Source: a virus. From it: a stretch of 40,216 bases of DNA. The notes under the pieces were generated by a model. It had not been told where the DNA came from and searched no databases. It worked only from the letters and a program-made list of their open reading frames with translations. Positions 244 to 36,002 of this stretch are shown here, in pieces (within the stretch, counting starts at the first letter, position 1; each line of letters begins with the position of its first letter). Position numbers and translations under genes: made by a program. Location of the stretch: IMG/VR virus record IMGVR_UViG_3300013125_000017, positions 1-40,216 of that record; one strand, given 5' to 3'.

Positions 244-306
244 AAGTTTATATCCATGTTTTTCAAATTTTTTACTTACCTCTTCAATTGCCAATTTTTT
301 AGGCAT
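1..306 (-). CDS. Homing endonuclease with tandem zinc-ribbon modules, inside the fractured portal gene (partial, runs off left edge)
   Basis: Reading leftward from an ATG at 304-306 the frame stays open to the window edge (102 codons) and begins MPKKLAIEEVSKKFEKHGYK. It shows two modules of the form GYKLLSTEY...C-x2-GH, the first completed by C-x2-C (CSVC). The same module makes up the proteins at 3218-4099 and 27756-28847, which end in a Vsr/EDxHD-like nuclease domain, so that domain is expected beyond the left edge. The start overlaps the stop of the portal/N-intein gene (ATGCCTAA), so translation is probably coupled. An endonuclease gene lying between two halves of a split intein is the known 'fractured gene' arrangement. 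The nuclease domain itself is not visible, so the assignment rests on the module family and position. Confidence 0.8.
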   Translation of the reverse strand, partial: MPKKLAIEEVSKKFEKHGYKLLSTEYVNNKQKLDVLCNKGHKFQIRFDMFSNGRGCSVCNITPKYNFTYVKECIEAERGYKLLSTEYVNNKQKLDVLCNKGH

Positions 307-625
307 ATTCTACTAAGTCCATTTCTTCTGTTAAGTTCTGAGCTTCAACTTCAATTATACTTGTTTTGGTTTCATCTGACCATACTAAAAATTTATGGTC
401 TAGTGTACAGTCAATATATTTTTCATCATCGAGCCACACCCTGATTATTTTTTCATCAAACCTTGTCAATGCTGCATTTTTAATTTTTCCTGGTTCAACG
501 TTCAACGTTTTCTGGTCAATTGAATAAACCCAATTTTCTTTACCTTCAGAATGTTCTTGAACTAATTGGTCTAATGTCAAGAACCTACCATCTAATAATG
601 GTATTTCTGTATCATGTTTTATACA
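299..625 (-). other. N-half of a canonical split intein (portal intein IntN)
   Basis: This is the intein portion of the portal N-gene: Cys331 (codon 623-625) to the stop at 299-301. Block A (CIKHDTEIPLLDG) and block B (IDCTLDHKFLV, with the catalytic Thr and His) are both present. Blocks F and G are absent and must be supplied by a separate C-intein gene beyond the edge. The flanking extein reads NEPEVF before the Cys, a conserved part of the portal. Confidence 0.85.
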
Positions 626-1615
626 AAACACTTCTGGTTCGTTGGTAAGAGCCCCAGACTGAGGATTATACGTTTGTTTCTTTATAAATGATTGTTTGAT
701 TTTTTCCACGAATTTCATAGCTTTGTCACGAGGCATGGCACCTGTATCGATCTTAAAGACCAATCTTTCAGGCGACCTAATAAGTCTATAAATAATAACA
801 GATGTTTCCAAAAGTTTTAATTGGTTGTATGGTACTCTGGCCTTTTCAAGATAACCAAGTACATTTATTTTTGTTTGACCATATATACCATAGTTGATAT
901 ATCCAATCTGAGCCGGTTCAAATATAATTAATTTACCAAGTTGAGCATCTTTTTCAGCAGATTGTTTATTAGGTGGTCTTCTCATGTTTGGAAGAAGATA
1001 TTGATAATATCCCATGATTCTACCGGTTTTGGGATCATATTCATAATCCATTGTATCAGAAGGAAGTTTTTTTACAGATATAATACCTTTACTTTTATTA
1101 TTTTGATCTACTATTCTTTCATAAAATAATCTACCATCAATAAGATATGATCTCATCCAATCCCATAATGTATCATTAGCATCTATTCTTTCATAAAAAA
1201 GAGATTTAAATTCGTTATATAGTATTTTACTAATATTTTCATTATCAGCAAGTTTAGGGTCTGTAATGTCAAGAGATAACATATTTTCATCTTCATCAAC
1301 ATCACACATTTCGTTACAAGCATCTTCAATAACATCTGAAATTTCTGGATATTCAGCCATTTTTCTATATTCCATAATTCTTGCATATTCATTTTCAAAT
1401 GCTCTACTAATATATGAATTATAGAATGAATTAAAAGAACCAAGAGATTGAGAACCATATGCACCAGCTAATTGAAGCATTAAAACATCTTCAATACCTT
1501 CACCTGTTCTCTTTTTAAAATCAGATGCTGTCATGTTAGCATCTCTATCTTTACCCTTAAATGCTGCTATTCTTTCATCAATCCTTTTATCACTGAGAAG
1601 ATTATACCACGCCAT
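299..1615 (-). CDS. 20: Portal vertex protein gp20, N-terminal part fused to the N-half of a split intein
   Basis: Residues 1-330 resemble the N-terminal two thirds of T4-like portal proteins (start MAWYNLLSDKRIDERI; internal LPSDTMDYEYDPKTGRIMGY and RLVFKIDTGAMPRDKAM). The portal forms the dodecameric ring through which DNA is packaged and to which the neck binds. At Cys331 the portal stops and an intein begins: block A CIKHDTEIPLLDG, then block B with the TxxH motif (CTLDHKF). The gene ends 108 residues into the intein, a usual length for the N-half of a canonical split intein. The C-intein and C-terminal portal are expected left of the window. A functional portal would need trans-splicing. 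The start follows an 'aggag' site and lies 9 bp after the stop of the upstream gene. Confidence 0.88.
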   Translation of the reverse strand: MAWYNLLSDKRIDERIAAFKGKDRDANMTASDFKKRTGEGIEDVLMLQLAGAYGSQSLGSFNSFYNSYISRAFENEYARIMEYRKMAEYPEISDVIEDACNEMCDVDEDENMLSLDITDPKLADNENISKILYNEFKSLFYERIDANDTLWDWMRSYLIDGRLFYERIVDQNNKSKGIISVKKLPSDTMDYEYDPKTGRIMGYYQYLLPNMRRPPNKQSAEKDAQLGKLIIFEPAQIGYINYGIYGQTKINVLGYLEKARVPYNQLKLLETSVIIYRLIRSPERLVFKIDTGAMPRDKAMKFVEKIKQSFIKKQTYNPQSGALTNEPEVFCIKHDTEIPLLDGRFLTLDQLVQEHSEGKENWVYSIDQKTLNVEPGKIKNAALTRFDEKIIRVWLDDEKYIDCTLDHKFLVWSDETKTSIIEVEAQNLTEEMDLVEYA

Positions 1616-7851: not shown

Positions 7852-7862
7852 TTTCTCCCCTT

Positions 7863-11640: not shown

Positions 11641-11668
11641 GATATAAATCAGTTGTGGGGGTAAGACG

Positions 11669-12895: not shown

Positions 12896-13302
12896 TAGAG
12901 TATAATGATGAAATAGAATCTATTGAATATGTTGGTGAATTAGAATGTATGGATATTGAGGTATCAGGAGATCATTTATTCTATGCTAATGATATACTTA
13001 CAAAAAATAGTATTGGAACAATGGCGAGTGCTGATTTTGCTCTTATCTTTGGTAGTGATGAATCTCAGGCAGTATATGAATCTGAACTATTTTATAAAAT
13101 TGTAAAGAATAGATTAGGTGGTAGGGTAGGTGAAATTGATAAATTTTATACAGATATGAGAAATTTAAAGATGTATGATAGTATGGAATTAGATAAATGG
13201 CTTGATGATTCTGGAATATCAGGTGATACCAGAAAAAAGGCAGAAGTTATAGATAGAGTTGAAAATAATAGAGGTAGAAGATCAAGAAGGGAAAGAAGAT
13301 AA
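12892..13302 (+). CDS. 41: Helicase gp41, C-terminal piece preceded by a canonical C-intein
   Basis: Residues 1-39 are a C-intein (ECMDIEVSGDHLFYANDIL, ending TKN39), the same length class and nearly the same sequence as the gp41-1 C-intein. The usual penultimate His is replaced by Lys (TKN instead of THN). From Ser40 the helicase resumes: SIGTMASADFALIFGSDE through VKNRLGGRVGEIDKF, then a tail rich in Arg. Joining YISE to SIGTMASADF gives the continuous gp41 motif. The three exteins sum to 197+169+97 = 463 residues, close to T4 gp41 (475). Confidence 0.88.
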   Translation: MIEYNDEIESIEYVGELECMDIEVSGDHLFYANDILTKNSIGTMASADFALIFGSDESQAVYESELFYKIVKNRLGGRVGEIDKFYTDMRNLKMYDSMELDKWLDDSGISGDTRKKAEVIDRVENNRGRRSRRERR

Positions 13303-20357: not shown

Positions 20358-20534
20358 ATGGAGAAGAAGCCTATGGTCGTAAGAGTTACTAAAACAGAGT
20401 TTGAATTAGATGATGGAAGAATATTTCCTCACCCAGTAGAACTTGATGACGTTCCTACTATTGAGGAATTTCAGAAAATTTATGACAAAAGCCGTAAACT
20501 TGTTTCTGATATGCTGAAGGATGATAATGACTAA
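20358..20534 (+). CDS. Small phage protein, probably truncated by the IS607-type insertion
   Basis: 58 residues: VVRVTKTEFELDDGRIFPHP, then VPTIEEFQKIYDKSRKLVSD, a compact beta-then-helix protein. Its last codons (20520-20534) overlap the transposon tnpA start, so the C-terminus may come from the element. If the element is removed between GG at 20519-20520 and GG at 22697-22698, the frame continues LKERYKRNMW and stops. No family is recognised with confidence. Ribosome site GAAAGGTTAAAT. Confidence 0.6.
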   Translation: MEKKPMVVRVTKTEFELDDGRIFPHPVELDDVPTIEEFQKIYDKSRKLVSDMLKDDND

Positions 20535-21162
20535 TAATCTTATAGATATATCTGAAGCATCTCAACTTCTTGGAGTGGATAAGTCTACTTTGAGGTATTG
20601 GGATAAAACTAATAAACTGAAACCACAGAAAACCGCTGGTGGTCATAGAAGATATTTATTATCTGATATTAAGAAACTTCAAGGTATATCTGAAGACTGT
20701 ATAGATGATGGTATTAATGAAAATAATGTAGCTGTTTATTGTAGAGTTTCCTCACATGAGCAGAAACAAAAAGGTGACTTAGAACGTCAAAAAGGCAGAC
20801 TTCTTGAATATTGTATTAAGAAAAAGTATCAAGTAGAGTATATCTTCGAAGAGGTAGGTTCTGGTATGTCTGATACAAGAACTAAACTACATAGGTTGTG
20901 TGATGTAGCTGAAAAGAGAAAGATATGTAAAATTATAGTAGAACATAAAGATAGATTAACAAGATTTAACTATTTGATATATGAAAGATATTTTAAAAGT
21001 TTAGGCGTTGAAGTTATTATTGTAGAAGAGACTCTACCTAAAACTTATGAAGCTGAGTTAGTTGAAGATATTATGTCTTTAGTAGCCTCGTCTTCATCTA
21101 AAGTTTATGGAAAAAGAAGTGCGGAAAATAGAAGAAAGAAAAAAGAGATGGTTACATGTTAG
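20527..21162 (+). CDS. tnpA: IS607 transposase TnpA (serine recombinase)
   Basis: 211 residues. The N-terminal MerR-like helix-turn-helix (DISEASQLLGVDKSTLRYWD; TAGGHRRY) is followed by a serine recombinase catalytic domain: VAVYCRVSSHEQ (nucleophilic Ser near 75), KIIVEHKDRLTRF and the C-terminal SSSSKVYGKRSAENRR. Length matches IS607 TnpA. The ATG at 20527 is favoured over 20521 because AAGGA lies 5 nt upstream. The gene overlaps the next gene by 7 bp. Confidence 0.92.
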   Translation: MTNNLIDISEASQLLGVDKSTLRYWDKTNKLKPQKTAGGHRRYLLSDIKKLQGISEDCIDDGINENNVAVYCRVSSHEQKQKGDLERQKGRLLEYCIKKKYQVEYIFEEVGSGMSDTRTKLHRLCDVAEKRKICKIIVEHKDRLTRFNYLIYERYFKSLGVEVIIVEETLPKTYEAELVEDIMSLVASSSSKVYGKRSAENRRKKKEMVTC

Positions 21163-21575
21163 ATTTTGAAAACTCTCATCATTTAGAACCAGAAATAACT
21201 TGGCAAGACTGCGCTACATTTATATATGATGCTGTTTTGGATGGAAAATTAAATAGAGAAGATTTCATTAAGCTTTTTATATTATCTGGTCAAGAAATGT
21301 CTGATCCTCGACATGTAAGAATATTTGCTAAAGCATTAGGAGCTTTTTTCAAAAGAGATTATACAGATTTAAAGTCTGAAGAAAAACCCGCAGTGCTTGT
21401 AATAGTAAACAATAAAAAATATTTAGTCTCGCATAACAATGAAGAAATAACTATAAATGAAGCAAATGATTTAAAAGACTTATCAGACTATTCTTTTATT
21501 ATTACACATGAAACTGAAGCAGATGGTAAAATAGCAGCGTGGGAAAGAAAAGAAAAATACATAGAGAGAATATAG
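21156..21575 (+). CDS. Unknown protein encoded between tnpA and tnpB
   Basis: 139 residues, overlapping the end of tnpA and ending 1 bp before tnpB, so it is translated as part of the transposon operon. Acidic N-terminus, a helical segment (DFIKLFILSGQEMSDPRHVR, then IFAKALGAFFKRDY), and a beta-rich second half (PAVLVIVNNKKYLVSHNNEE). IS607 elements usually carry only tnpA and tnpB, so this is an accessory gene of unknown role. It might regulate transposition or the TnpB nuclease. Confidence 0.7.
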   Translation: MLDFENSHHLEPEITWQDCATFIYDAVLDGKLNREDFIKLFILSGQEMSDPRHVRIFAKALGAFFKRDYTDLKSEEKPAVLVIVNNKKYLVSHNNEEITINEANDLKDLSDYSFIITHETEADGKIAAWERKEKYIERI

Positions 21576-21576
21576 G

Positions 21577-22689
21577 ATGAAACTAATAAGATCAACTAAA
21601 TGTAGTCTGAAGTTTGCTACAAAACATAAAACCGCTGAATTACAATCTATCCTTGCAGAGTATGGTAAAGTTTGTAATATCTTTATAGATCACTTTTGGA
21701 AGAACGAAACTCCTTCTAAAGCTGAACTCCTTAAAGATATAGTTGATCTTCCTAAAGAGACTTGGCTATCTGCAAGGTTGAGAAAAGTTGCTGCCCGTGA
21801 ATCTATTGACATGATCAAGGCAACTAAAGAGAGATGGAAGTCTAAACCAGATAAGATGAAGATGCCTATACATAAAGGCAAACGAATGTATGTGTCTTGC
21901 ACCATAGCTGATCTCAATGAGTCAGAAGAGGCTACTGAATTTGATGCTTGGTTACATATAGCTTCGGTAGGAGATAAGCATATTTTAGATTTGCCCATTA
22001 AATTCCATAAGCATTTCAATAAGATAGCTTCTATTGGTAAAAGATTAAATAGTTATATTATTACTGATAAGTATGTTCAATTTAGTTTTGAAGTCGAAAC
22101 CTTACCTAAAAAAGAAGGTAACAAGGTTTTAGGTATAGATACTGGTATTAACGCTCTTGCGTCTCTTTCTAACAAGATACAGCTTGGTACAGATATTAAA
22201 TCTTGTATAGAGAGGATAAAGAGGTGTAAGCAAGGATCAAAAGGTCAGAAACAGGCTCGTAGAGCTTTAAAACAGAGAATAGATGAAGTTGCTCAAGAGA
22301 TTATTAAACTCGATCCTGATATGATTGTAGTAGAAAAGTTGAAGGATTTAGGTAAGAATACAAAAGTCAAACGTCTATTGACTAAAAATATTAGACGCTC
22401 TATCGGAATCTGGAATTGGAAGTATTGGTTAAAAAGGTTAGAACAAGCTTGTGAACTTAACCGTGTTAAGTTCCGCACTGTAGCTTCTTTTTATACCTCT
22501 ACAACCTGTTCAGAGTGTGGTTATTCTGATAGGATGAATCGTAATGGTGAGCTATTTAAGTGTCTAAAATGTAACCACGAGATGAATGCGGATATAAATG
22601 CCGCCTTGAATATACTCAAACGATTCATTACAGGAGTCTACGGTTCCTGTTGCAAACCTGAAGAAGTAATGAACTTTAATTTTTCATAA
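21577..22689 (+). CDS. tnpB: TnpB, RNA-guided nuclease of the IS200/IS605/IS607 group
   Basis: 370 residues, the usual compact TnpB length. RuvC-like catalytic residues are present: Asp188 in LGIDTGINAL, Glu near 253 in IVVEKLKDLG, and Asp near 339 in MNADINAALNI. The zinc finger CSECG...CLKC lies at about 311-330. The N-terminal KLIRSTKCSLKFATKH is the usual OB-fold start. TnpB is guided by an omega-RNA encoded at the 3' end of its gene and cuts DNA to preserve the element. All catalytic and zinc residues are intact, so activity is likely. Confidence 0.92.
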   Translation: MKLIRSTKCSLKFATKHKTAELQSILAEYGKVCNIFIDHFWKNETPSKAELLKDIVDLPKETWLSARLRKVAARESIDMIKATKERWKSKPDKMKMPIHKGKRMYVSCTIADLNESEEATEFDAWLHIASVGDKHILDLPIKFHKHFNKIASIGKRLNSYIITDKYVQFSFEVETLPKKEGNKVLGIDTGINALASLSNKIQLGTDIKSCIERIKRCKQGSKGQKQARRALKQRIDEVAQEIIKLDPDMIVVEKLKDLGKNTKVKRLLTKNIRRSIGIWNWKYWLKRLEQACELNRVKFRTVASFYTSTTCSECGYSDRMNRNGELFKCLKCNHEMNADINAALNILKRFITGVYGSCCKPEEVMNFNFS

Positions 22690-24185: not shown

Positions 24186-26294
24186 TTAATCATCTTCTTC
24201 TATTTGATAATATAACATCCATTTATATAAAGATGAACTTTCATCAATTTTTTTCATACTATAAAGTTTGTTATTGGATGATTTTAATATTGTAGCAAAT
24301 CTAGGATCTAATGTCATTTCAAATTTAAACGATGCTCCATATCCAACACCATCTTCTCTAACATTAATAATAGCGATAGGAATATACTCATTAGAACCTT
24401 TAACTTTATATGCTAAGATAGGTGGTTCTTTATCAGTTACGGCTTCTAAATTCTCTTGTATTTCATCCCATTTATCAGTTTTAAAAATATCATTTATAAT
24501 ATTTTTATCTACAGACATATCACCTATAGCCATTGTTTCTTCATTTTCTGTAACTGATTTTAAAGGAAATTCTGATTTTATTTCATCTAACATACCCTTT
24601 TTTAATTTTTCATTGGATGCGATCGCTTTTATTGAATCAATTGCATACATTTTATTCATTCTTTTAATGTCACTTAATGCTTCTTGTGCTTTTTTATCAT
24701 CCATAGATGCTTGTACTTTTAATGATGCAAGAAGTATTTTTCTACTTTCCCTATTATCACCTGTTATAAATTTATTAATGTTTATCTCTTTATTTTTTGC
24801 TAATAAAGCCTTTAGTTCATTTATTTCTGGTGTTGATGCAGAGGATAAAAGTCTATTAATTTCATCTTTATCAATACTATTAGATAAAGACCTTTTTAAG
24901 TTGGAAGCATATACAATAGGATCAATTTCAGGGGGTAAGTTTTTATCCCAAATTTTAAATTTTCCTGTTGATGAATTAAGAAAATTAATATTTTTATCTT
25001 TTTTCAATGAGACTTCATTCAGAATAACCTGGCCATTAGGTAGTTTTAATTTTATATAGACATCTGATGAAAATCCTTTATTTTTCTTATAGTCATTTAA
25101 TCCAAGAGCTTCTACATCATCTTTAGTATCCCAACAAGTATGTGTAATTATTGAGGATGCATCATCAACATTAAATTCTTTTTGTATTCTATTATGAATA
25201 GCAGAAGCATTATTCGTAGCAGCTTTTATCCAATCTTTTGTTATGATTGTCTTTTCATTTTTCTCAAATTGACCTAAATGCGAAATTAAAGATTTACTAA
25301 ATTCATTCATTTCCTTTTTAGATAATGATGTTGCAATCATCGTCATCAATTCCCCAGCTTGAGCTTGTAATTTACCAGCGCCCCCAGCGCCCCCATTTGT
25401 AAAAAATGATATAGGTGGTTCTGTAGAACTTATAGGTCTTGTATTCATCATTCTTATTAATATCTGTAATTCTCTTTGGGGAATCTTATTGGAAGAACTT
25501 AAAAATATAGGAGGTTCCCATTTATTTGATATAGATATATCATTTCCATTATAATCATTTAATTTTTTATAGAAATCATCATCACCTTTATCATAATCAT
25601 AAAGACCTTCTGTAAATGCTTTTTGTTTAGATGTTTCAATTTCTTTTAATGTTTTATCTTTATCTCCTATATGTGTTGGATATTTTTTATCCACGATCGT
25701 TGATTTTAATGAAGATACCTTTGTTGCTGCCTCAGATTCTTTTTTTTCATTATCTTGCTGTATCAATTTGTCTAATTCATCTTGTGCATTTTGAGTCATT
25801 CTTAATCTTCTATCTTTTCCACCATTCTCAAAATACCATTGAGCAATTTCTTTGTCTGTTTTTAAATAAGAAGGTGCTGTACCTGTTTTTGATGCCTCTG
25901 AATCTTGTTTTTCTTTTTTTTCTTTAGGGGAAAGAGTCTCTTGTTTTTGTATAGGATTCTGAATTTGTGAATTCTTATCCCCACTCATTCCTTTATTATC
26001 TAATTCTTTAAAAATTGATCCATCTAATTTACCCTTTCGTGACCCATTTACATAGACATTATGTCCAATGTGTTTCCATCCACCACTAGTCAATTTTTGT
26101 ACCATATCATAATGAGCTTTATCAACACCAAATTGATCTTTATGTATTTCTGGTTTCAGTCTTTCTTTTTTTTTACTATCCTTCTTTTTAGTAACAGGGG
26201 TTTTTGCAGTAGGTTCCTTCTTTTTTGAACCTACCATGCTTTTTACTATATCTTCTTTGACTTCTTCATCCAGATAGTTGACAAATCGTGACAT
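24186..26294 (-). CDS. Large putative virion protein with a head-leader-like N-terminus
   Basis: 702 residues from the ATG at 26294 (MSRFVNYLDEEVKEDIVKSM); this start overlaps the previous stop (TAATG), and an upstream in-frame ATG at 26306 lacks a site. The first 11 residues resemble the short leader ending L/I-x-E that targets T4 internal proteins to the prohead. Next comes a long Lys/Glu-rich linker (to about 190), then a globular part with SDVYIKLKLPNGQVILNEVS ending in LKKD, which could be a PD-(D/E)xK-like metal site, and a C-terminal domain EYIPIAIINVREDGVGYGAS. It is the last gene of the operon that starts at 33334. It is probably packaged in or attached to the capsid; enzymatic function is uncertain. 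Confidence 0.6.
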   Translation of the reverse strand: MSRFVNYLDEEVKEDIVKSMVGSKKKEPTAKTPVTKKKDSKKKERLKPEIHKDQFGVDKAHYDMVQKLTSGGWKHIGHNVYVNGSRKGKLDGSIFKELDNKGMSGDKNSQIQNPIQKQETLSPKEKKEKQDSEASKTGTAPSYLKTDKEIAQWYFENGGKDRRLRMTQNAQDELDKLIQQDNEKKESEAATKVSSLKSTIVDKKYPTHIGDKDKTLKEIETSKQKAFTEGLYDYDKGDDDFYKKLNDYNGNDISISNKWEPPIFLSSSNKIPQRELQILIRMMNTRPISSTEPPISFFTNGGAGGAGKLQAQAGELMTMIATSLSKKEMNEFSKSLISHLGQFEKNEKTIITKDWIKAATNNASAIHNRIQKEFNVDDASSIITHTCWDTKDDVEALGLNDYKKNKGFSSDVYIKLKLPNGQVILNEVSLKKDKNINFLNSSTGKFKIWDKNLPPEIDPIVYASNLKRSLSNSIDKDEINRLLSSASTPEINELKALLAKNKEININKFITGDNRESRKILLASLKVQASMDDKKAQEALSDIKRMNKMYAIDSIKAIASNEKLKKGMLDEIKSEFPLKSVTENEETMAIGDMSVDKNIINDIFKTDKWDEIQENLEAVTDKEPPILAYKVKGSNEYIPIAIINVREDGVGYGASFKFEMTLDPRFATILKSSNNKLYSMKKIDESSSLYKWMLYYQIEEDD

Positions 26295-27709
26295 TATTCT
26301 AGCCATCCTTTAATTCCTTTATTTTCACTTTCATTAGTTGAACTTGTTATACTACTACCAGAAATACTAAGAGCATACCTCTTTGCTGGATTAATAATCA
26401 AATTAGCTTGTGTTATAAATGATCTATTTAATAATACAGGTGTACTCATTGCGACTCTATTACTGATTGTAAATTTTATATCTTTATATGTGTCACCATT
26501 AAAAGTTACATTCAACAAAACAGCTGGTCTTTCTTCCATTTTTCCCATTGTACGAACATTTTTCATTCCATCTAGTTTATGCTCATATTTTTTACCATTA
26601 CAAGTCCATGTAATATATTCTCCATCTATTGTCCATTTATCAGAATGTATAACACAATATGATCCATTACCTGTATCCATTTTGGCTTTCATATCACCTA
26701 AAGTTTCTATATTGATCATTTCTATATAACCACATTCAGTAGGAGTCTTATGCCAATTATTTCTATTAGTTATATGAGTTATAACTTTTTTAGTTATAGG
26801 TATTTTTGTTGCTTTTTCTATTCCTTCTGTTCCGGGAGATGAATTAATTTCGAGAACATACAATTTACCATCTTTCGTTTTCATTATATCAACACCTGCC
26901 CATACAGCACCCACACATTTTGATGCTAGTATAGCTAATTTTTCTACATCTTCAGTTATTTTTAAGGGAGCGACCGAACCTCCTAATGAATAATTAGAAC
27001 GAAAATCTTGCTTAATCTTCATTCTTTTCATACCAGCTATATATTTACCACCTAAGATATGAATTCTCATATCATAATCCGCTTCTAAAAATTCTTGAAT
27101 AATAACCTCTGTTCCTTGTTTTAATTTCCATACCGTTTGTAGAGTAGATTTCATTCCTTCTACAGAATCAACTAAAAATACACCAACTCCTTGCTCTCCT
27201 GTAAGTGTCTTTATTACACAAGGAAATTTACCCCCTACCTTTTTAAAAGCGGCTTCTATACCATTTTCATTAGATATAAGGGCTGTTTTAGGTGTAGGTA
27301 TTTTAGCATCTGACATTTTTAAATAAGTTCTATACTTATCATAACATTCTTCTATACATTGTCTTGAATTTACACAAAATATACCATATCTTTCTAACTG
27401 TGACACAAAATCTAAACTTGCCTGTCCTTTGGTAACACTATTTCTTATTATAGCCACTGTATTATTTTTACTTATTCTGAATCCTACTTTATCACCAACA
27501 TTATAAATTCGTAATTTACCATCATCATCCTTAGCAAGAAACACCTCTTCAGCATATGCAATATAATTTTTTATTTTCATCGTATCACACATTTCTTTTA
27601 TTTTACCTGATGTTTTATAATAACCACCGGACTTTTTACGACTTGTTATTACAATAACTCGTATATCCTTATCTATTTCTTCTTTTAAATAGTCATCTAA
27701 TGATATCAT
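26294..27709 (-). CDS. RimK-like ATP-grasp ligase fused to a retropepsin-like protease domain
   Basis: 471 residues. The N-terminus MISLDDYLKEEID resembles the prohead leader seen in neighbours. Residues about 130-310 are a RimK-type ATP-grasp domain: GGKFPCVIKTLTGEQGVGVF, EVIIQEFLEADYDMRIHILG and GVDIMKTKDGKLYVLEINSS (metal-binding E-x-N). Residues about 325-440 form a retropepsin-like domain of the RimB/'ATP-dependent zinc protease' family: MKAKMDTGNGSYCVIHS, with the catalytic DTG at about 345-347. RimK adds glutamates to ribosomal protein S6, and RimB-type proteases are found beside it; here both are one polypeptide. The substrate is unknown; a host protein or a virion tail are possibilities. 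Ribosome site GAGGAATAAAAT. Confidence 0.8.
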   Translation of the reverse strand: MISLDDYLKEEIDKDIRVIVITSRKKSGGYYKTSGKIKEMCDTMKIKNYIAYAEEVFLAKDDDGKLRIYNVGDKVGFRISKNNTVAIIRNSVTKGQASLDFVSQLERYGIFCVNSRQCIEECYDKYRTYLKMSDAKIPTPKTALISNENGIEAAFKKVGGKFPCVIKTLTGEQGVGVFLVDSVEGMKSTLQTVWKLKQGTEVIIQEFLEADYDMRIHILGGKYIAGMKRMKIKQDFRSNYSLGGSVAPLKITEDVEKLAILASKCVGAVWAGVDIMKTKDGKLYVLEINSSPGTEGIEKATKIPITKKVITHITNRNNWHKTPTECGYIEMINIETLGDMKAKMDTGNGSYCVIHSDKWTIDGEYITWTCNGKKYEHKLDGMKNVRTMGKMEERPAVLLNVTFNGDTYKDIKFTISNRVAMSTPVLLNRSFITQANLIINPAKRYALSISGSSITSSTNESENKGIKGWLE

Positions 27710-27749
27710 ATTTTATTCCTCTTTATAATATTTACAATATTGATAAATC

Positions 27750-28876
27750 TTGACATTAATTCATCTCCAATTCCTTATCAGATAAAAATATTTCTATTCT
27801 ATTCTTTGTATTGTAACTACTTTTATTCCAGTCTTTATCAGATATTGTTAATAATTGGATATTATCTAATTCACATTGTTTTTTCTTTATTACATCATTT
27901 ATTTTCTTTTCAGATCTACTATGCCAATACTCTCCATTGATTTCTATTGCTTTTTTAAGATGAGGAAAATATAAATCAAGTTCAAGAAAATGATTTGTAT
28001 TTGGGTTAATAATAGTTCTCCTATCATTCATTATGTATGTTATGTTTAATGTATTTATAAATTTTCTTATTTCAATTTCTTCTTTTGATACACTACATTT
28101 TCCACATCTCTGACCGTCTCTCCAATGTCTAACTGAAATAGAATGTCTATGTTTGGCAGGACAAATAAATTCTATTTTTGTTGTATTTTGAGTTTTATAT
28201 TCATCTTCCTTTGTTATTACATTATATCCTTCATCTTCAAAAGACTTCTTTATATCAGAAAACTCTATTTGAGCTTGATTTTGACAATATGGACATCTAA
28301 TCCCTCTCTTGAATGCTGTATATGTAATATAGTGACTATGGCCGTTAGGACATTTGTAGTTCAATTTTGTTCTATAACCAGAAATTTTATATTCAGGTAT
28401 AAATACTGTGTATCCATTAGAATTAAATAATTTTAATATTTGCTCATTTGAAATAGGGGAATTTTTTCTACATTTTCCACATCTTTGCCCAGAAATCCAA
28501 TTACCCACACTTATTCTATGATAATGTCCATTAGGGCATGTAAAATATAAAAATTGATACCTATTAATATATTCTTTCGTATGTAAAACATATCCTTCAT
28601 CTTCAAATGATTTACTCAATAAATCGAAATCTAATTTGTTTTTCTGATTTATTATAGGATTTGAACATTTATTTGAACAATATAATAATTTTCCATCAAG
28701 ACGAATAAATTCTTTATTGCATCCCTTACAAATAAAGTAATTATAATGTCGTTTTGGTTTCAAATAATATTCTTCTCTTTCTTTATAAATGTTAAATCTT
28801 TTAATATTTTCTTCTGTAAGTTCTATGGTTTTTGGGTACATTGACATTAATCCATCTCCAATTCCTTATTAGATAA
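27750..28876 (-). repeat. 36-bp direct repeat flanking the endonuclease gene (27750-27785 and 28841-28876)
   Basis: The two 36-bp copies differ at two positions. On the minus strand the right copy is the 3' end of the DHH gene with its stop and the overlapping start (SNKELEMD, TAATG). The left copy is the 3' end of the endonuclease itself (SDKELEMN, TAATG). The endonuclease therefore sits between the original and a duplicated copy of the host gene's end. Confidence 0.9.
27756..28847 (-). CDS. Homing endonuclease with zinc-ribbon array and Vsr/EDxHD-like nuclease
   Basis: 363 residues. An N-terminal zinc finger (CKGC...CSNKC) precedes three modules with C-P-N-G-H or C-P-A-K-H and C-G-K-C/C-P-Y-C, each containing GY-x-h...EY. 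The nuclease domain has KEEIEIRKFI, LELDLYFPH, IEINGEYWH (about 295-303), a KKKQC helix and LLTISDKDW. It is a paralogue of the proteins at 3218-4099 and 1-306. The start is the second base onward of TAATG at the DHH stop, with GGAG just upstream inside the DHH coding sequence, so translation is coupled. The last nine residues copy the C-terminus of the DHH protein. Confidence 0.88.
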   Translation of the reverse strand: MSMYPKTIELTEENIKRFNIYKEREEYYLKPKRHYNYFICKGCNKEFIRLDGKLLYCSNKCSNPIINQKNKLDFDLLSKSFEDEGYVLHTKEYINRYQFLYFTCPNGHYHRISVGNWISGQRCGKCRKNSPISNEQILKLFNSNGYTVFIPEYKISGYRTKLNYKCPNGHSHYITYTAFKRGIRCPYCQNQAQIEFSDIKKSFEDEGYNVITKEDEYKTQNTTKIEFICPAKHRHSISVRHWRDGQRCGKCSVSKEEIEIRKFINTLNITYIMNDRRTIINPNTNHFLELDLYFPHLKKAIEINGEYWHSRSEKKINDVIKKKQCELDNIQLLTISDKDWNKSSYNTKNRIEIFLSDKELEMN

Positions 28877-30277
28877 TTCTCTAACAAGATCAGTAGCTAC
28901 AGCCTTCATAATATTAATAAATCCTTTGCCTATAAAACCCCATCCCGATAGATTTGTTATATTCTTATGCCCACCTGATTGAGCTTGAATAATATCCCAA
29001 GCTGATACTGATATAGTTCTTAATATTTTATGATCTTTCTGTGAAAGTTGACTAAATGGTGTATTCATTATTGTTTTCAACATATCATAATATGTTTCAG
29101 TATCTTGTAAACCTTTAGTATATTTTTTAAATAATGCCATAAAATCATTCATGGTAAATCCCATAGAATTATCGGTAACACCTCGTTCAAATGACATTTT
29201 TATATAATCAGCTGATACCATTATTCGTTTAAGGTCTCCCTTATATTTTGATATTACTTTTTGGGCTAATTCACCTAAATGATATGGATTATCACCTTTT
29301 ATGAACGGGTTTACAGTAGCTTGTAATAAACCAAGAGGCCACATCATTACAAGATATTGAGCTGTAGGATTAACCTTAAATACTGTATATCTATCATATA
29401 CAACTGTCTTACTTACAAGTGAACTACTTCCATATTGGACAACACAATTCCCAAACATCATGGATTCACCTGTTTTCAAATTAATTATATCACTTAAATT
29501 ACCTTGTTTTTTTCTTATTTCTTGATTTTGAATATAATTTTGCATTCCAGAATCTACCTCTTCTGGTGTTTTATATCCATTCTTTTTAGCAAGATATTTA
29601 ATTATAATATACATATTAGTTAAAGAAGGTTTTGCCATTAAAACTAATTGGTCAAGAAATCCCTTTTTATTTTTATATGCTAATAACAACTTATTAACAA
29701 CTAATCCCATAAAAATCCTATTTTTACTAACATCTATTTTAGAATTGACTTCAAATGCCGCTCTCATAACATCATCAGGTGTTATATCATTTTTAGCAAA
29801 ATCAGCACTATCAACCATTGATATGAGTTTTAAATCTTCTTGTGGAAAGGAATCAGATTTTGGTATAATAGTTGATAAATATGCAGCATTAGATGGTGTA
29901 TGTACGAATGATGTTGATGTTCTGTCAGAAACACCTACTTGACCTTCATGATGATCTGTATGAATATGCATTATAGCATCTTTACCATGAGCAAAATCAA
30001 CAAGAACATGAAGTGTTTTATCTTGTGGTTTAGGAACAGAATATTCCATCCCTCCATAATTTATCATATGAGTATCAATAATTTTTATACCATATCCTTC
30101 AAGATATGTCTTGATGGCTATAGCTGATGTTACACCATCAAGGTCTTGATGAAAATATATTTCAGCATTTTTGTGAGTTTTTGCAAGCTCACGAATATTG
30201 CGAATTCCAGATTCATTTAAGACTTGTATCAACCCATCTTCATATAAACAGAAATCTATCTTTTCTACTATATTCAT
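28847..30277 (-). CDS. DHH-family phosphoesterase
   Basis: 476 residues. DHH motifs are present in order: HQDLDGVTSAIAI (Asp45-Gly48), VLVDFAHGKD (Asp94), HTDHHEG (108-110) and VDSADF (about 165). This superfamily contains RecJ, oligoribonuclease NrnA and pAp phosphatases; metal-dependent hydrolysis of a phosphodiester or phosphoanhydride is expected. The C-terminal half (WPLGLLQATVNPF; GERGVTDNSMGF-like region) may be the DHHA1 substrate domain, including a GGHKNITNLSGWGF segment that corresponds to the GGH motif of DHHA1. Start and stop overlap neighbours. A role in degrading short RNA or DNA oligonucleotides is inferred. Confidence 0.8.
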   Translation of the reverse strand: MNIVEKIDFCLYEDGLIQVLNESGIRNIRELAKTHKNAEIYFHQDLDGVTSAIAIKTYLEGYGIKIIDTHMINYGGMEYSVPKPQDKTLHVLVDFAHGKDAIMHIHTDHHEGQVGVSDRTSTSFVHTPSNAAYLSTIIPKSDSFPQEDLKLISMVDSADFAKNDITPDDVMRAAFEVNSKIDVSKNRIFMGLVVNKLLLAYKNKKGFLDQLVLMAKPSLTNMYIIIKYLAKKNGYKTPEEVDSGMQNYIQNQEIRKKQGNLSDIINLKTGESMMFGNCVVQYGSSSLVSKTVVYDRYTVFKVNPTAQYLVMMWPLGLLQATVNPFIKGDNPYHLGELAQKVISKYKGDLKRIMVSADYIKMSFERGVTDNSMGFTMNDFMALFKKYTKGLQDTETYYDMLKTIMNTPFSQLSQKDHKILRTISVSAWDIIQAQSGGHKNITNLSGWGFIGKGFINIMKAVATDLVRELSNKELEMD

Positions 30278-31023
30278 TATCTATCTCCTTCTATTTTCTT
30301 ATTTAAATATTTTCTTAATTTCTTATTTTTTAATTTCCTTCTTTCTATCTTTGTACCAAATTTTGGATAGAACTTTTGTATATTCGTAGATGTTGTTGCT
30401 CCATTAGGATCTGTATATCCCTCTCCCTGTTGTGAACTAGGGGTGCCTCCTGTGTCATCTTCATTTACACTTCCTATATCTTGTTTTATCATTATTATAG
30501 AATTATAAAAATTATTATATATATCAAATTCATCTTGAGATGCATTCATATCTATTAAAACTTTTTTAATTTTTTTAAGAGATGTTAATATATATTCGAC
30601 ATCATTTAACCATTCTTTATAATTTGTTATTTCAATCCCAAATATATTTCTCATTACTAATTTTAACATAGAGGAGAGGCCAATAAATGAATTATCTATT
30701 TCCATAATAAATGAGACAATCCTTTGTCTATTAACACTTTTTATATCTGATTTTAATTTTAATTTTAAATCATCTTTTTCCTTACCATTTTTCGTAATAA
30801 TATATTTACAGATAAGACCAATAATATTAGATACTTCTTTTCCTGCTCTTTCAAGATAATCAAAAATCGTATCAGATCTCTTTATCTGAATGCCTATTTT
30901 ATTACCTACTTTTTTAATATTATCAAATACAGAATCAGGAACACCAATATTTTCATTTAATATGATAAGTGATATATCTTCAAATATATTATCCTTTTTA
31001 AGATATTCATTAAATATATTCAT
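30277..31023 (-). CDS. Putative internal virion protein, mostly helical
   Basis: 248 residues. The N-terminus MNIFNEYLKKDNIFED resembles, less exactly, the leader seen in other genes here. The body is helical without cysteines or catalytic motifs; a disordered Gly/Ser/Thr stretch (DTGGTPSSQQGEGYTDPNGA) precedes a basic C-terminal helix (ERRKLKNKKLRKYLNKK). It lies between the membrane protein and the DHH gene with single-base overlaps, so expression is tightly coupled. Function is not recognised. Confidence 0.5.
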   Translation of the reverse strand: MNIFNEYLKKDNIFEDISLIILNENIGVPDSVFDNIKKVGNKIGIQIKRSDTIFDYLERAGKEVSNIIGLICKYIITKNGKEKDDLKLKLKSDIKSVNRQRIVSFIMEIDNSFIGLSSMLKLVMRNIFGIEITNYKEWLNDVEYILTSLKKIKKVLIDMNASQDEFDIYNNFYNSIIMIKQDIGSVNEDDTGGTPSSQQGEGYTDPNGATTSTNIQKFYPKFGTKIERRKLKNKKLRKYLNKKIEGDR

Positions 31024-31454
31024 TATTTTCCATTCCTTGAAAGAAATAATTCTAATTGTTGTTTCATATTTTCTGTATGCTCCTTTAGGTTTTCTCTCAT
31101 TTCTAATTTTATACCATTTATAATAGATGTTTCTAATTTAAATTGTGTTAAACTAGAAATTATAACACCCAATGTTATAATTATACTGAAAACAGCAATA
31201 AGGATTTTTATTTTAGTAAGTATACTTCTAATTCCATTAACAACATCATTACCTTCAAATTTTCTAATTTCTTCTTTTATTATTCCTATTTCATCAACAA
31301 CAGTAGGTATTGTATCAGAAACCTTAGTTAATGATATATTTATAGAACGTAACATATCAGTATTTGATGTATTTGTTTCTTGCAAATTATCAATTAATCT
31401 TTCTACTATGCCAGGAAGAATATCAGTTGAATTATATTTTTTATCATCTGTCAT
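31023..31454 (-). CDS. Single-span membrane protein with coiled-coil flanks
   Basis: 143 residues. One clear transmembrane helix lies at about 82-101 (KIKILIAVFSIIITLGVIIS). Long polar helices before and after have heptad-like spacing (IGIIKEEIRKFEG; LKEHTENMKQQLELF). There is no signal peptide. It overlaps the 3' end of the PAS gene by 11 bp, so the two are translated together and may act together at the membrane. A tail- or lysis-related role cannot be excluded. Confidence 0.6.
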   Translation of the reverse strand: MTDDKKYNSTDILPGIVERLIDNLQETNTSNTDMLRSINISLTKVSDTIPTVVDEIGIIKEEIRKFEGNDVVNGIRSILTKIKILIAVFSIIITLGVIISSLTQFKLETSIINGIKLEMRENLKEHTENMKQQLELFLSRNGK

Positions 31455-32652
31455 TAGAATATTTCCATTTTCTATTAAATGATAATATTGTATTATTCAA
31501 ATTATTTATAGCTTTTCTAGTTTCTTGTAATGTTTCACCTTCTAATTTTTCCAATTTTCTTATAATTTTATTTTGTTGATGTACTGATTCTGTAATATCT
31601 TTAACAATACCACTACACCCAACAACAGATTTATTATCATCAAGTAAAGGAGATTTTATAATTTCTACAATAATTTCATTTCCGTTTATATTATATTTTT
31701 TTATAAATCTTTCTACTTTATCTGTTATCGTTGTGCATTCCGTAGAATTTAATATATCTTCATCAAGATGAAAATCTCTAAGAGCTTTATTAGCGAATAT
31801 TATATTTTTACATGAATCATTCACCCAAACCATATCATCCATAGAATCAAGAAATGATTCTAAAACTGAATATAATTCTTTAAATTTTTTACGAGAATTA
31901 TCAATATCTTCTTTTGCTTTAATCATTTCGGTTATATCAATAGAAACACCACCTAACAAATCACCGTTTATAGGAAATTTTGTTACCATATATGTATTTC
32001 CATTGATTTTATTTTCAGATATTGAAGATGTTTTCTTTTCAAAAACGATTTTATCATTTTCTGCCATATCATCAGCAATGTCTTTGGGCCATATATCATG
32101 TACAGTTTTACCTATTACTTCTAATGAAGGTTTTTTAAGAATTTTTTCATAATATTTTGATATTTTTATAAATTTTGATTGTTCGTCTTTTATATACATT
32201 GATACCGGACAATATTCAAAAAACTGATTTATAGCCTTTTCACTTTTTCTATAACGAGTTTTATCAATACTTGTATAAATTGTTGCATTTTTTCCTTTAT
32301 ACCATATAACATCTGGATGTATTTCACAATAAAGAGTTTTACCATCCTTTTTTATTATTTCAACTTCTTCATACATGTCTGGAATAGATTCATATTTACC
32401 TTCTAATCTTAATAAGGCTCTTGATGAAAATGTTTCTCTATCCTTATGTGTAAATAGATTACCAAATTTCAATGTTTCTAAATCTTTGTTAGTATATCCA
32501 GTTTTTTGATAAAATGTATCATTAGCATAAAGAATTTCTTCCCCTCTATTAATAATAATTATAACAGTTATTGTGTCTAGAACTGTGGCCAATATATTAG
32601 ATTCACGCCTATCATTTTCCACAGGAATATTAATACGTCGTCTATTATTCAT
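31444..32652 (-). CDS. Triple PAS-domain sensor protein without an output domain
   Basis: 402 residues. Three PAS domains lie in a row: about 16-130 (EEILYANDTFYQKTGYTNKD; EEVEIIKKDGKTLYCEIH), about 132-240 (FFEYCPVSMYIKDEQSKFIK; GGVSIDITEMIKAKED) and about 252-355 (SMDDMVWVNDSCKNIIFANK; CSGIVKDITESVHQQNKIIR). The PAC-type endings (DIT-E) are conserved. The C-terminus is a coiled coil with no histidine kinase, GGDEF, EAL or HTH. PAS domains bind small ligands, haem or flavin or mediate dimerisation. A phage-borne PAS array is unusual. It is the second gene of the operon that starts with the HAD phosphatase. Confidence 0.85.
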   Translation of the reverse strand: MNNRRRINIPVENDRRESNILATVLDTITVIIIINRGEEILYANDTFYQKTGYTNKDLETLKFGNLFTHKDRETFSSRALLRLEGKYESIPDMYEEVEIIKKDGKTLYCEIHPDVIWYKGKNATIYTSIDKTRYRKSEKAINQFFEYCPVSMYIKDEQSKFIKISKYYEKILKKPSLEVIGKTVHDIWPKDIADDMAENDKIVFEKKTSSISENKINGNTYMVTKFPINGDLLGGVSIDITEMIKAKEDIDNSRKKFKELYSVLESFLDSMDDMVWVNDSCKNIIFANKALRDFHLDEDILNSTECTTITDKVERFIKKYNINGNEIIVEIIKSPLLDDNKSVVGCSGIVKDITESVHQQNKIIRKLEKLEGETLQETRKAINNLNNTILSFNRKWKYSNDR

Positions 32653-32656
32653 TACA

Positions 32657-33334
32657 TTAACTCCTTATTATTCTTTTTAATGACCCATCCTTTAAGGCTT
32701 GTAAAGCATAAAATTCTATAGCTGGTTCATTTTCAGGTACATTATATTTATTTCTTATTTTATTTTCAATCTCTTTAGGAATTGATATCTCTAATTCTAA
32801 AAATGCTTGACAATTAGCCTCACTATCATCTATAAGGCGAACTCTTCTGTATAGACCACTTGATAGATATTTTAAAATTGTTAGTTTCTTTTTTGTAGGT
32901 AAATCTGCTTGTGCTTTACCCGGATTACCAACCCTCTCTACATATATATTATCAATAGGAATACCAAAGTCTCTCATTGCTTGTAGAAAAACTTCTTTAT
33001 TGTCTAAATCTGCTCTACCAGTTAATATAACAATCTTTGATCCTCTTTTATTAATATTTTGGAACATTCTTTGGATTCTATTAATCATTTTGGTTACTGG
33101 TTTAGATGTATTTTTAAAATATTCAGCATTTCCATATTCACTAAAATCAAATGTTTCACCTTCTTGTTTATCATAATGAAGAAAGGCAAAATTACCTAAT
33201 CTGTTTGTAATTTTTCCGTTTTTATATACATTTATTTTAGCATTTGTGTAAAGTATGGTATCATCTAAATCCATAAATGTTATGCCAGGGCCATAAATAC
33301 TTGAATTTTCTGAAATAAAAGATTTTAATCTCAT
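32657..33334 (-). CDS. HAD-superfamily phosphatase with a head-leader-like N-terminus (copy 1)
   Basis: 225 residues. MRLKSFISENSS at the start matches the leader of three plus-strand genes nearby. HAD motif I is FMDLDDTIL (nucleophile and acid Asp), motif II is VILTGRADL, and the acidic motif IV is VRLIDDSEA. A Lys in KAQADLPTKKK may supply motif III. It is a divergently transcribed paralogue of 33425-34093. The substrate is unknown; phage HAD enzymes often act on nucleotides or 5'/3' phosphates. Ribosome site GAGGAAAACTT before the ATG. Confidence 0.8.
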   Translation of the reverse strand: MRLKSFISENSSIYGPGITFMDLDDTILYTNAKINVYKNGKITNRLGNFAFLHYDKQEGETFDFSEYGNAEYFKNTSKPVTKMINRIQRMFQNINKRGSKIVILTGRADLDNKEVFLQAMRDFGIPIDNIYVERVGNPGKAQADLPTKKKLTILKYLSSGLYRRVRLIDDSEANCQAFLELEISIPKEIENKIRNKYNVPENEPAIEFYALQALKDGSLKRIIRS

Positions 33335-33376
33335 AAGTTTTCCTCACATAGTAGTTATATTATTTTATATTATTTA

Positions 33377-33393
33377 TTATAAATAATATTTAT
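33377..33393. promoter_or_regulatory. Divergent T4-type late promoter motifs between the HAD paralogues
   Basis: TATAAATA on the plus strand at 33377-33384 and on the minus strand at 33386-33393, 1 bp apart in a 90-bp divergent gap. They point outward to the two HAD genes, 40 and 51 bp from the start codons. This layout is more convincing than isolated copies of the octamer. Confidence 0.55.
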
Positions 33394-33424
33394 ATCAGTA
33401 TATATCTATTTAGGAGAAATTTAT

Positions 33425-34093
33425 ATGAGATTAAAGAATTATATAACAGAAAAGGAAACAAAGGGTTTAGGGATAACATTTGTAGACCTTGATGAGACAT
33501 TATTTAATACATTTGCTAAAATAAACGTCATAAAGAATGATAAAATAATTAAATCACTTACTAATGCAGAATATAATAGTTATAAAAAAGAAGATGGAGA
33601 AACATTTGATTATTCTGAATTTAGAAATGCAAAATTATTTTATGATACATCTAAACCGGTAACCAAAATGATAAAAAGAGTGGTTAGAATTATAAACCAT
33701 TCTGAACAAAGAGGATCAAAAGTTATAATTCTTACGGCTAGAACTAATTTAGATAATAAATCTTTATTCTTAGAAAAATTTAGAAAAGAAGGATTTCCTA
33801 TAGATAAGGTATATGTTGAAAGAGCTGGTAATCGATCTGGTATATCAATACCATATATAAAAAAAGAAATTATAGTTAAATACTTAAAAGATGGTGTTTA
33901 TCGTCGTGTTAGATTATTTGATGATTATTTAACAACATGTAAAGAATTTTTAACAATAAAACAAGATATTCCGACAGAAATTTTAAATAAGGTTCGTAAA
34001 ACATATAATTTATATGATATTGCTGATGAAGATCTTATATCATTTGAATCATATAATGTTCAACCTGATGGGTCTGTCAAGGAGATAAAATAA
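33425..34093 (+). CDS. HAD-superfamily phosphatase with a head-leader-like N-terminus (copy 2)
   Basis: 222 residues, paralogous to 32657-33334 along its whole length. Leader MRLKNYITEKET; motif I FVDLDETLF; motif II VIILTARTNL; motif IV VRLFDDYLT. The region DTSKPVTKMIKRVVRII corresponds to NTSKPVTKMINRIQRMF in copy 1. Ribosome site AGGAGAAATTTAT. Its stop overlaps the next ATG (TAATG). Keeping two divergent copies, both with intact motifs, suggests different substrates. Confidence 0.8.
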   Translation: MRLKNYITEKETKGLGITFVDLDETLFNTFAKINVIKNDKIIKSLTNAEYNSYKKEDGETFDYSEFRNAKLFYDTSKPVTKMIKRVVRIINHSEQRGSKVIILTARTNLDNKSLFLEKFRKEGFPIDKVYVERAGNRSGISIPYIKKEIIVKYLKDGVYRRVRLFDDYLTTCKEFLTIKQDIPTEILNKVRKTYNLYDIADEDLISFESYNVQPDGSVKEIK

Positions 34094-34767
34094 TGAGATT
34101 ACAAAAATATATGGTTAATGAGACAATAGTACCATCATGGATTTTAAAAATTTTTAATATAGTAAAATCAGAATTATATAAAATGTCATTTAGTGAATTT
34201 GTAAAAAAATGTGAGAATGATTATAATAAAATTTTATTATCTGTATTGAAAAAAATAGATACAACGAATAATAAAAATCAAGAACCCATAACGTATAAAA
34301 TATCAGATATTTTAGGTAAGGTATTTTATATTGTAGGTACAACAGATAAAGAAAAAATAGAAGATAAAAAATTTATCAATTTATTATTAAAAACTACTAA
34401 AGATAAAAATATAAAAGAAAGACTTTTCAATTTAGATCAAAAATTAGATATAAATGATTCTTTACGTTATTGTAATAGGAAAGAAATATTTGAAAACCCA
34501 ATAAATGAAGATGCTGCCCATTTATGGAAACTTATAAAAACAGAAGCATTTCCTACTATGTCATTTTATCCGGCTCTTCAGGTTTGGCTTGAACTTGATA
34601 AGGTATTGAAAGGCACAGAATATAGTGGTAAAGTAATTGGTTTTTATGCTTCATTTTGGCTTATATTAATATCTGGTAAACATATAGCTCAATGGATGAA
34701 ATGGAAAAAAGAAAATCCTGAGCAATATAAAAAAGAAAGAGAAGAAGGAAATGGTGGTATCTTATAA
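34093..34767 (+). CDS. Putative internal head protein with C-terminal hydrophobic helix
   Basis: 224 residues. Leader MRLQKYMVNETIVPSW, then helical segments, then the segment AFPTMSFYPALQVWLELDKV followed by a hydrophobic helix GFYASFWLILISGKHIAQWM and a charged tail. It is the intact paralogue of the frame-disrupted gene 34767-35257. It starts at the overlap of the HAD stop and ends overlapping the next start. The leader suggests capsid targeting and cleavage after V-N-E; the enzymatic role, if any, is unknown. Confidence 0.6.
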   Translation: MRLQKYMVNETIVPSWILKIFNIVKSELYKMSFSEFVKKCENDYNKILLSVLKKIDTTNNKNQEPITYKISDILGKVFYIVGTTDKEKIEDKKFINLLLKTTKDKNIKERLFNLDQKLDINDSLRYCNRKEIFENPINEDAAHLWKLIKTEAFPTMSFYPALQVWLELDKVLKGTEYSGKVIGFYASFWLILISGKHIAQWMKWKKENPEQYKKEREEGNGGIL

Positions 34768-35257
34768 TGAGACTTAAACAATATATAGCAAATGAAATGA
34801 TAAATGAGATTGCAATATCATCTTGGATTTCTAAAGTAAAAACAGAGGTTTCTAAACTATCAATAAAAGAAATAGAAAGAAAATGTAGAGAAGCATTCTA
34901 TCAATTAGCTGATGCATTATTGAAAAGATTGGATGATACAAAAAATGATAGTATAACTGTTAAAATAGCTGATGAAATATCTAAACTTTTTATATGGCAG
35001 GCACAACAAAGAAAGAAAGAATGGATACTGATGAACTGATAAAACATATAATAGAATTGAAAAATCGTAAGATAAATGAATCTGTGTCAGCAACAGTAAA
35101 GAAAGATGAAATTGTATCGGTCGTTGTATCTTATCCAGTATATTCACTTGCTATATATATTGATATTATTTCTGGTAGATATATAAAAAATATGAATTTT
35201 ATGTCTATAATATATGCTGCAATATTCTTAGTATATTTGTCTGCTAAACATATATAG
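34767..35257 (+). CDS. Frame-disrupted paralogue of the preceding gene
   Basis: The first frame reads MRLKQYIANEMINE to SKLFIWQ and stops at 35037-35039. The continuation is in the -1 frame, from YMAGTTKKERMDTDELIKHI to LSAKHI (stop 35255-35257). Slipping one base back on the T5 run at 34987-34991 gives SKLF-YMAGTT, which aligns with GKVFYIVGTT in the intact paralogue at 34093-34767. A further in-frame run after the stop (VIKKYKEEQEKKGRR...) to 35331 resembles the paralogue's charged tail, so the 3' end has also gained a stop. One lost T, a -1 frameshift or assembly error could explain the break. Likely a decaying duplicate. Confidence 0.65.
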
Positions 35258-35588: not shown

Positions 35589-36002
35589 ATGAATGAAAGT
35601 ACAGTCAGTAAAATAGATAACTTCTTGAATGAAAAAGAAGAAAAAACAGATATAAAAGTAAAAATTATGGAATTTTTGAAAGATAATCCAAATCCAGAAG
35701 ATAGTAAAATCCATAAGTTTGCTGATGAACATAATATTAATTCACATAAATTAGAGGAAGAAATATACAGTATTCTTACATCATTTCTAAGTAATGGGCG
35801 ATTTAATGAATCCGGTAAAAGTGAAGATGATATATATAAAAAAGAAATAGAAATGGGTATAAAGGTAGAAGCAGAACATACAAATTATCCAATGATGGCA
35901 AGACGTATAGCATTAGATCACCTAGCTGAAATTCCAGATTATTACACGCGTTTGAAAAAAATGGAGGATGAAGGTAAGAAGGAACACAGTATAAAAGAAT
36001 AA
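35589..36002 (+). CDS. DUF5661-like phage protein
   Basis: 137 residues from the ATG at 35589, preceded by GGAGGGTAAAAGATAAT. The middle (SKIHKFADEHNINSHKLEEE) and the end (MGIKVEAEHTNYPMMARRIA, then LDHLAEIPDYYTRL) match the DUF5661 pattern: a helix, then GxxVExEHT...AxxIAxDHLxExPxYYxxL. Function is unknown, but the conserved acidic and His residues suggest metal binding. It ends 1 bp before the gp4-like gene, so it belongs to a structural-gene operon. Confidence 0.7.
   Translation: MNESTVSKIDNFLNEKEEKTDIKVKIMEFLKDNPNPEDSKIHKFADEHNINSHKLEEEIYSILTSFLSNGRFNESGKSEDDIYKKEIEMGIKVEAEHTNYPMMARRIALDHLAEIPDYYTRLKKMEDEGKKEHSIKE

Follow-up and report, generated by a model that had tools for sequence, protein, structure and literature searches.

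The window, that is, the whole stretch of DNA that was analysed, comprised positions 1-40,216 (40,216 nt) of the IMG/VR record IMGVR_UViG_3300013125_000017, which originates from an uncultivated T4-like virus of bacteria. An earlier note had claimed seven leader-like N-termini in this DNA. All seven were found in the ORF list of the window on the ORFs named for them, so that this claim held, with uneven quality of the motif. The set was incomplete, since the leader of a DUF5661 gene (start 35589) had been missed. The genes and features concerned were as follows.

299..1615, minus strand: gp20 portal, interrupted by an intein, at the left end of the window.
24186..26294, minus strand: large protein of unknown function; leader MSRFVNYLDE (26265-26294).
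26294..27709, minus strand: RimK-like ATP-grasp ligase with an ATP-dependent Zn-protease-like domain, according to Pfam and PDB relatives; leader MISLDDYLKE (27680-27709).
28847..30277, minus strand: DHH-type phosphoesterase-like protein, a tentative assignment from weak DHH matches (Pfam/PHROG); degenerate leader MNIVEKIDFCLYE.
30277..31023, minus strand: protein of unknown function; MNIFNEYLKK, a weak leader without E.
32657..33334, minus strand: HAD-family phosphatase-like protein, according to a HAD-type Pfam match and paralogue alignment; leader MRLKSFISE (codons 1-9, 33308-33334).
33378..33394: a TATAAATA octamer on each strand, the two standing back to back in the gap that separates the divergent HAD genes; similar to T4-type late promoters.
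33425..34093, plus strand: HAD-family phosphatase-like protein with a HAD-type Pfam match; leader MRLKNYITE (33425-33451), Shine-Dalgarno sequence AGGAG upstream.
34093..34767, plus strand: protein of unknown function whose C-terminal part includes a hydrophobic stretch; leader MRLQKYMVNE (34093-34122).
34767..35039, plus strand: truncated copy of the gene before it, probably the result of a frameshift; leader MRLKQYIANE (34767-34796).
35589..36002, plus strand: DUF5661 protein (Pfam DUF5661); leader MNESTVSKIDNFLNE (35589-35633).

The two HAD genes were divergent paralogues, 50% identical over their full length; their products weakly resembled a polynucleotide kinase PHROG and retained an intact HAD motif I (DxDxT). 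Close relatives were found neither in INPHARED phages nor by a single-sequence scan; relatives were recovered with a two-sequence profile, and this HAD profile gave no match in the PDB. Alignment of six members of the family demonstrated that MRL..[FY][IL].E was retained and that its E was invariant in all six. The genes at 34093 and 34767 were related to each other over the N-terminal ~80 residues. Because the tail of the next ORF (34994-35257) resembled the C-terminus of the 34093..34767 gene in another frame, albeit weakly (E 0.002), the gene at 34767..35039 was taken as a frameshifted copy, the remainder of which likely sits in 34994-35257. The four adjacent MRL starts named in the earlier note were thus present, but they came from only two families, the HAD pair and one pair of unknown function. 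The leader of the 34093..34767 gene was identical in its counterpart in the related contig G001.

For two of the genes, the listed start was revised. The DUF5661 start at 35589, with GGAGG upstream, was preferred over the listed position 35568, which is likely not the real start. The listed ORF of the 24186..26294 gene opened with MARIMSRF..., and its codon 5 at 26294 was preferred as the start, in agreement with the homologue in G001. Leaders were also found on homologues of this protein in G001 and G007 and on a weakly related one in G009. In its AlphaFold model, the N-terminal ~250 residues were of low confidence. A by-eye guess that this protein is a PD-(D/E)XK nuclease is not claimed here, the model being poor (pLDDT 54) and without a fold match. 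The Zn-protease-like domain formed the C-terminal part of the RimK-like protein. The G001 homologue of the 30277..31023 protein carried the full leader MRLKNFLKE. In the 28847..30277 protein, a second L-N-E was located immediately ahead of the conserved domain.

The leaders comprised 9-15 residues at ORF starts. The form [FY][LI]xE was exact in four of the seven leaders originally named (SFISE, NYITE, DYLKE and NYLDE) and loose in two (KYMVNE and QYIANE), and MNIFNEYLKK had K at the position of E. The putative processing sites of the window took the forms IS-E, IT-E, LK-E, LD-E and LN-E. Sites of the L/I-x-E form, after which the earlier note had proposed cleavage, were thus present in the window; MVNE and IANE fell short of the strict form and one leader lacked E.

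The excess of the motif over chance was estimated by shuffling. The loose form of the motif was found at 7 of the 46 N-termini of the window (shuffle mean 2.1; 7 was reached in 8 of 2000 shuffles). The tight form, M-x(2-9)-[FY][LIM]xE, was found at 5 of the 46 (shuffle mean 0.65; 5 was reached in none of 2000). One of these tight matches, at 18744 on a protein that appeared macro-domain-like by eye, was probably due to chance and was left out of the leader count. For six related contigs, including the window, the tight form occurred at 40 of 456 N-termini (shuffle mean 5.6, maximum 15) and downstream of only 1.2% of internal Met residues. Two near-complete genomes of relatives, which also encode gp20, gp21 and gp23, had 34 tight leaders among 248 N-termini (G022, 161.6 kb; shuffle mean 2.5) and 14 among 259 (G028, 171 kb; shuffle mean 2.3). 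Enrichment was weak in the isolated T4-like Pelagibacter phage Mosig (5 versus 1.3 by shuffling; 16 of 2000 shuffles). No tight leaders were present in G002, which carries a distant HAD relative; starts similar to MRLRELFTE were present there.

Residues not demanded by the regular expression were also compared. A hydrophobic residue occupied position -6 from E in 85 of 88 leaders versus 108 of 239 internal [FY][LIM]xE sites, and R or K occupied position -7 in 67 of 88 versus 37 of 239. The aromatic residue at -3 was built into the expression. For the T4 capsid-targeting sequence (CTS), mutants have shown that residues 4 and 7 are needed for targeting and residues 8 and 10 for processing (PMC9026906). 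When the ten-residue T4 leader MKTYQEFIAE was aligned on E, these residues corresponded to -6, -3, -2 and 0. The comparison with T4 leaders made in the earlier note therefore held, as the leaders of the clade matched T4 at all four functional positions. Among the T4 internal proteins, IPII and IPIII fitted the loose form and IPI did not.

The modularity of the leader was studied with a DNA pattern for MRLKx[FY][LIMF]xE, which was scanned over 2.9 million viral contigs. This yielded 89 stretches, and 80 loci were fetched. At these loci, 62 matches were ORF starts, and they headed 39 families, that is, groups without blastp similarity among them after removal of the leader. When the two central codons of the pattern were swapped as a control, 32 stretches were matched and a single ORF start, which fitted both patterns. 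One family of 16 ORFs (MRLKGFIIEP...) is possibly not headed by a genuine leader; 38 families remain without it. The alignment of 44 leader proteins gave the consensus MRxxxYLxE and no other common feature. Orthologues exchanged leaders and kept the motif. Leader-bearing DUF5661 orthologues were found in G001, G022, G028 and L082, and the DUF5661 leaders included KIDNFLNE, RISRYLME, KLRNFLRE, RLKNFLKE and KFNSFINE. The ATP-grasp orthologues carried LDDYLKE, FDDFVNE, LHNYMTE and, in Mosig, FKNYLEE; a leader was retained in G001, G028 and Mosig, and none was recognisable on the homologue in YerA41. The CCA-adding enzyme of G001 had ~23 extra N-terminal residues with a leader relative to the bacterial enzyme 1miv. 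The Arg and Leu codons differed among leaders, which makes selection on the protein likely and speaks against a repeat in the DNA itself. The clade also had a longer leader of a second type, M..EKI[DE]KYLxE.

The proteins behind the leaders were diverse. The window cargo comprised two HAD phosphatases, the RimK-like ligase/protease, the DUF5661 protein and proteins of unknown function. In the relatives, leaders were found on a tRNA nucleotidyltransferase, a zeta-toxin-like kinase, GNAT acetyltransferases, a methyltransferase, amidoligases, a C39 peptidase and SprT-like and DnaJ-like proteins. Two or three leader proteins of G001 and G007 had a YRG motif and appeared ADP-ribosyltransferase-like by eye; this assignment had no Pfam support. 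In YerA41, the ATP-grasp homologue bears the annotation "structural protein". For YerA41, 63 particle proteins were identified by LC-MS/MS (PMC7354516), and the annotation is inferred to derive from these proteomic data.

The earlier note had suggested finding gp21, the protease that would cut such leaders. A search of the window record for PF03420 gave no match, because the contig ends inside gp20. The gp20 of the window was a T4-type portal protein, ~26% identical to an Aeromonas phage gp20. Scanning with it revealed the contig IMGVR_UViG_3300013131_000203 (L011), with 100% protein identity, which overlapped window positions 1-20186 (20 kb) at 99.86% nucleotide identity. Therefore, L011 represents the same phage as the window, and the search for gp21 was positive: this phage encodes gp21, gp22 and gp23 off the left end of the window. 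The head genes of L011 followed the standard T4 order: after gp20 came a small acidic ORF, then an ORF for a core protein in the position of gp68, and then gp21, gp22 and gp23. Its gp21 (L011:15160-15795) matched Peptidase_S77 (PF03420, E 4e-29) and was 36% identical to T4 gp21, with the stretches SSRGLG, HP and D.V..PS common to both.

In L011, the ORF in the position of gp68 was MTKTITDRINKFLIEDEDE, and core proteins at this position in related contigs had a similar leader. The gp23 of L011 opened with MDLKELVVKWKDIL..., in which NYMNE|A aligned exactly with SFLTE|A of T4 gp23. FLTE|A is the known cleavage site of T4 gp23. In related contigs, the corresponding sites were KYLTE|T, KYLVE|T, KYLTE|A, NYMSE|S and NWLQE|A. 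Thus, the leader ends and the gp23 site of the clade, at which cleavage is predicted, have one common form, [YW][LM]xE-like. Among the contigs from the pattern scan, S77 co-occurred in 4 of 23 leader contigs versus 1 of 13 control contigs; this comparison carries no information, since most of these contigs were fragments, in which gp21 could be missed. No match to gp20, gp21 or gp23 was found in G015, a 110-kb contig with a leader gene.

The pair of TATAAATA octamers between the HAD genes occurred in the same arrangement in G001 and would fit late expression. This possibility rests on weak evidence, because the number of TATAAATA octamers across the window was at chance.

The analysis demonstrated the motif, its position at ORF starts, its modularity and its excess over chance, and it showed that the phage itself encodes gp21 and a gp23 whose site matches the leaders. 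The likely explanation is that the leaders are T4-type CTSs, cut by gp21 and carried by many enzymes. Core binding, cleavage, packaging, ejection and the roles of the cargo are inferred; no virion proteomics or cleavage data are available for the clade. During prohead core assembly, a leader of the form [KR]-hydrophobic-x-x-[FY]-[LI]-x-E would bind the scaffold core (gp22 and its partners), and the protein behind it would be enclosed in the head. The prohead protease gp21 would then cut after the E of the leader and so release the mature protein within the head; the freed cargo would exit with the DNA at infection. The shared tag suggests that the virus carries an enzyme kit and may inject it with its DNA. 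The earlier reading of a packaged cargo acting at infection is supported by this sequence evidence, from which packaging and cleavage are inferred only indirectly.

Several observations count against the CTS reading. One of the seven leaders lacks E and two fall short of strict L/I-x-E; G015 lacks a gp20, gp21 or gp23 match, the enrichment in Mosig is weak, and the YerA41 ATP-grasp protein has no recognisable leader. T4's own IPI and Alt also do not fit the regular expression.

Three other explanations were considered. An unlikely one, which nevertheless survives best, is that the leader directs its protein to the prohead core and that gp21 leaves most leaders uncut, the protein being packaged whole or docked to another part of the assembly such as the portal. 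In its favour, leaders with IANE, MVNE or LKK deviate from a perfect L/I-x-E site, and in T4, Asp at position 10 stops processing while targeting still works (PMC9026906). Against it, tight leaders, in which E is demanded, are ~6-14 times as frequent as in shuffles, all six aligned HADs have the E, and the leader ends agree in form with the clade's gp23 site.

It is very unlikely that the shared N-termini merely reflect descent or DNA-level 5' modules (duplication, recombination patches or translation-initiation signals) without a role in packaging. The four MRL genes do form two paralogous pairs, and some leaders have nucleotides in common (families D3 and D4). However, the leaders head 39 non-homologous cargo families with varying Arg and Leu codons, orthologues exchange leader types while the motif residues stay, and the codon-swapped control is almost missing from ORF starts. 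A short amphipathic helix with another, capsid-unrelated intracellular role (membrane or host-protein docking, or a degradation signal) is not excluded by any structure or experiment in the clade, but it too is very improbable, given that the T4 CTS is matched at all four functional positions, one of them not demanded by the expression, that the same motif closes the gp23 propeptide and recurs in the core proteins encoded at the position of gp68, and that the leader-bearing YRG proteins of the relatives, ADP-ribosyltransferase-like by eye, recall the packaged T4 Alt.

A bolder version of the CTS reading is that widespread uncultivated T4-like phages load 15-35 different proteins per head, many of them enzymes, via one exchangeable leader, that the kit is delivered before phage gene expression and that the packaged set is predictable from sequence. 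The evidence tips, by a narrow margin, towards this version. The enzyme activities named in it are RNA or tRNA end repair, peptide ligation, acetylation and proteolysis. If it is true, virion cargo could be predicted from genomes without phage isolation, many genes of unknown function could be assigned to a stage and site of action (moment zero of infection), and injected enzymes that are candidates for counter-defence could be shortlisted for testing. The mechanism is already known from T4; provisionally, the scale of its use and the enzyme cargo appear to be new. No description of this scale, of the enzyme cargo or of the longer M..EKI[DE]KYLxE type was found in the open-access literature searched, and subscription papers were outside the search.

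The closest known system is that of the T4 internal proteins, whose conserved CTS and variable bodies are well described (PMC3012670, PMC9026906, PMC12373910); the three of them are injected counter-defence proteins with only the leader in common (PMC12373910). As in the clade, the CTS of IPI-IPIII is N-terminal, ~10 residues long, with a hydrophobic residue at 4, an aromatic one at 7, L/I at 8 and E at 10, and it heads otherwise unrelated proteins in a phage with gp21 and gp22. The clade differs in the number of leader genes, 14-34 in each near-complete related genome as compared with three in T4, in a cargo that includes enzymes and large proteins whereas that of T4 consists of small inhibitors, and in the additional longer leader type. 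T4 Alt, a packaged ADP-ribosyltransferase, is likewise an enzyme with a short N-terminal propeptide, comparable to the leader proteins of G001 and G007 with a YRG motif by eye. However, Alt additionally undergoes C-terminal cleavage in T4 (PMC9026906), and the ADP-ribosyltransferase assignment in the clade lacks a Pfam family. The ejection proteins of PhiKZ and SPN3US are similar in that many packaged proteins are cut by a gp21 relative (PMC5694885, PMC9026906). The protease of those phages is strongly diverged and has another cleavage motif, whereas the clade of the window has T4-type gp20, gp21 and gp23.

Within the cluster of genes carrying the leader (a short, T4-type capsid-targeting-like N-terminus putatively cut by the prohead protease gp21), the product of 31444-32652 was found to have three PAS domains, which is unusual for a phage, and no leader. 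A glycine-rich basic segment (GEGY..TT..NI..FYPK) was C-terminal in the protein encoded at 30277-31023, whereas in its counterpart from the related contig G001 (L031:8309-9034) it directly followed the leader, an arrangement that resembles a permutation.

Zinc-ribbon/endonuclease-like free-standing ORFs, apparently of one family, were dispersed between genes at 3218-4099, at 27756-28847, where the ORF separated the DHH gene from the ATP-grasp gene, and at 13681-14160 of L011, a contig of the same phage. Judging from ORF reading alone, gp20 (299-1615 and L011:9998-13555) was apparently split by two inteins and endonuclease-like ORFs; inteins likewise seemed to interrupt the replicative helicase at 9489-13302 and the DNA polymerase at 15010-17790. 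An IS607-like element at 20521-22689 encoded a MerR-HTH/resolvase recombinase followed by TnpB (Cas12f1-like TNB domain).

Long collagen-like GTSGSSG repeats were present at 37392-39533 and 2020-3111, and L001 contained a similar repeat; the repeat protein is likely a tail-fibre protein. The 1250-aa protein encoded at 4117-7869 contained glycosyltransferase group 1, methyltransferase and family 9 glycosyltransferase domains.

In the relative G022 (IMGVR_UViG_3300027917_000020; loci L197-L205), 34 leader-bearing genes were found, grouped in several clusters and mostly belonging to no known family. This genome, which is T4-like and near-complete (161.6 kb), is the best candidate for packaged-proteome prediction.
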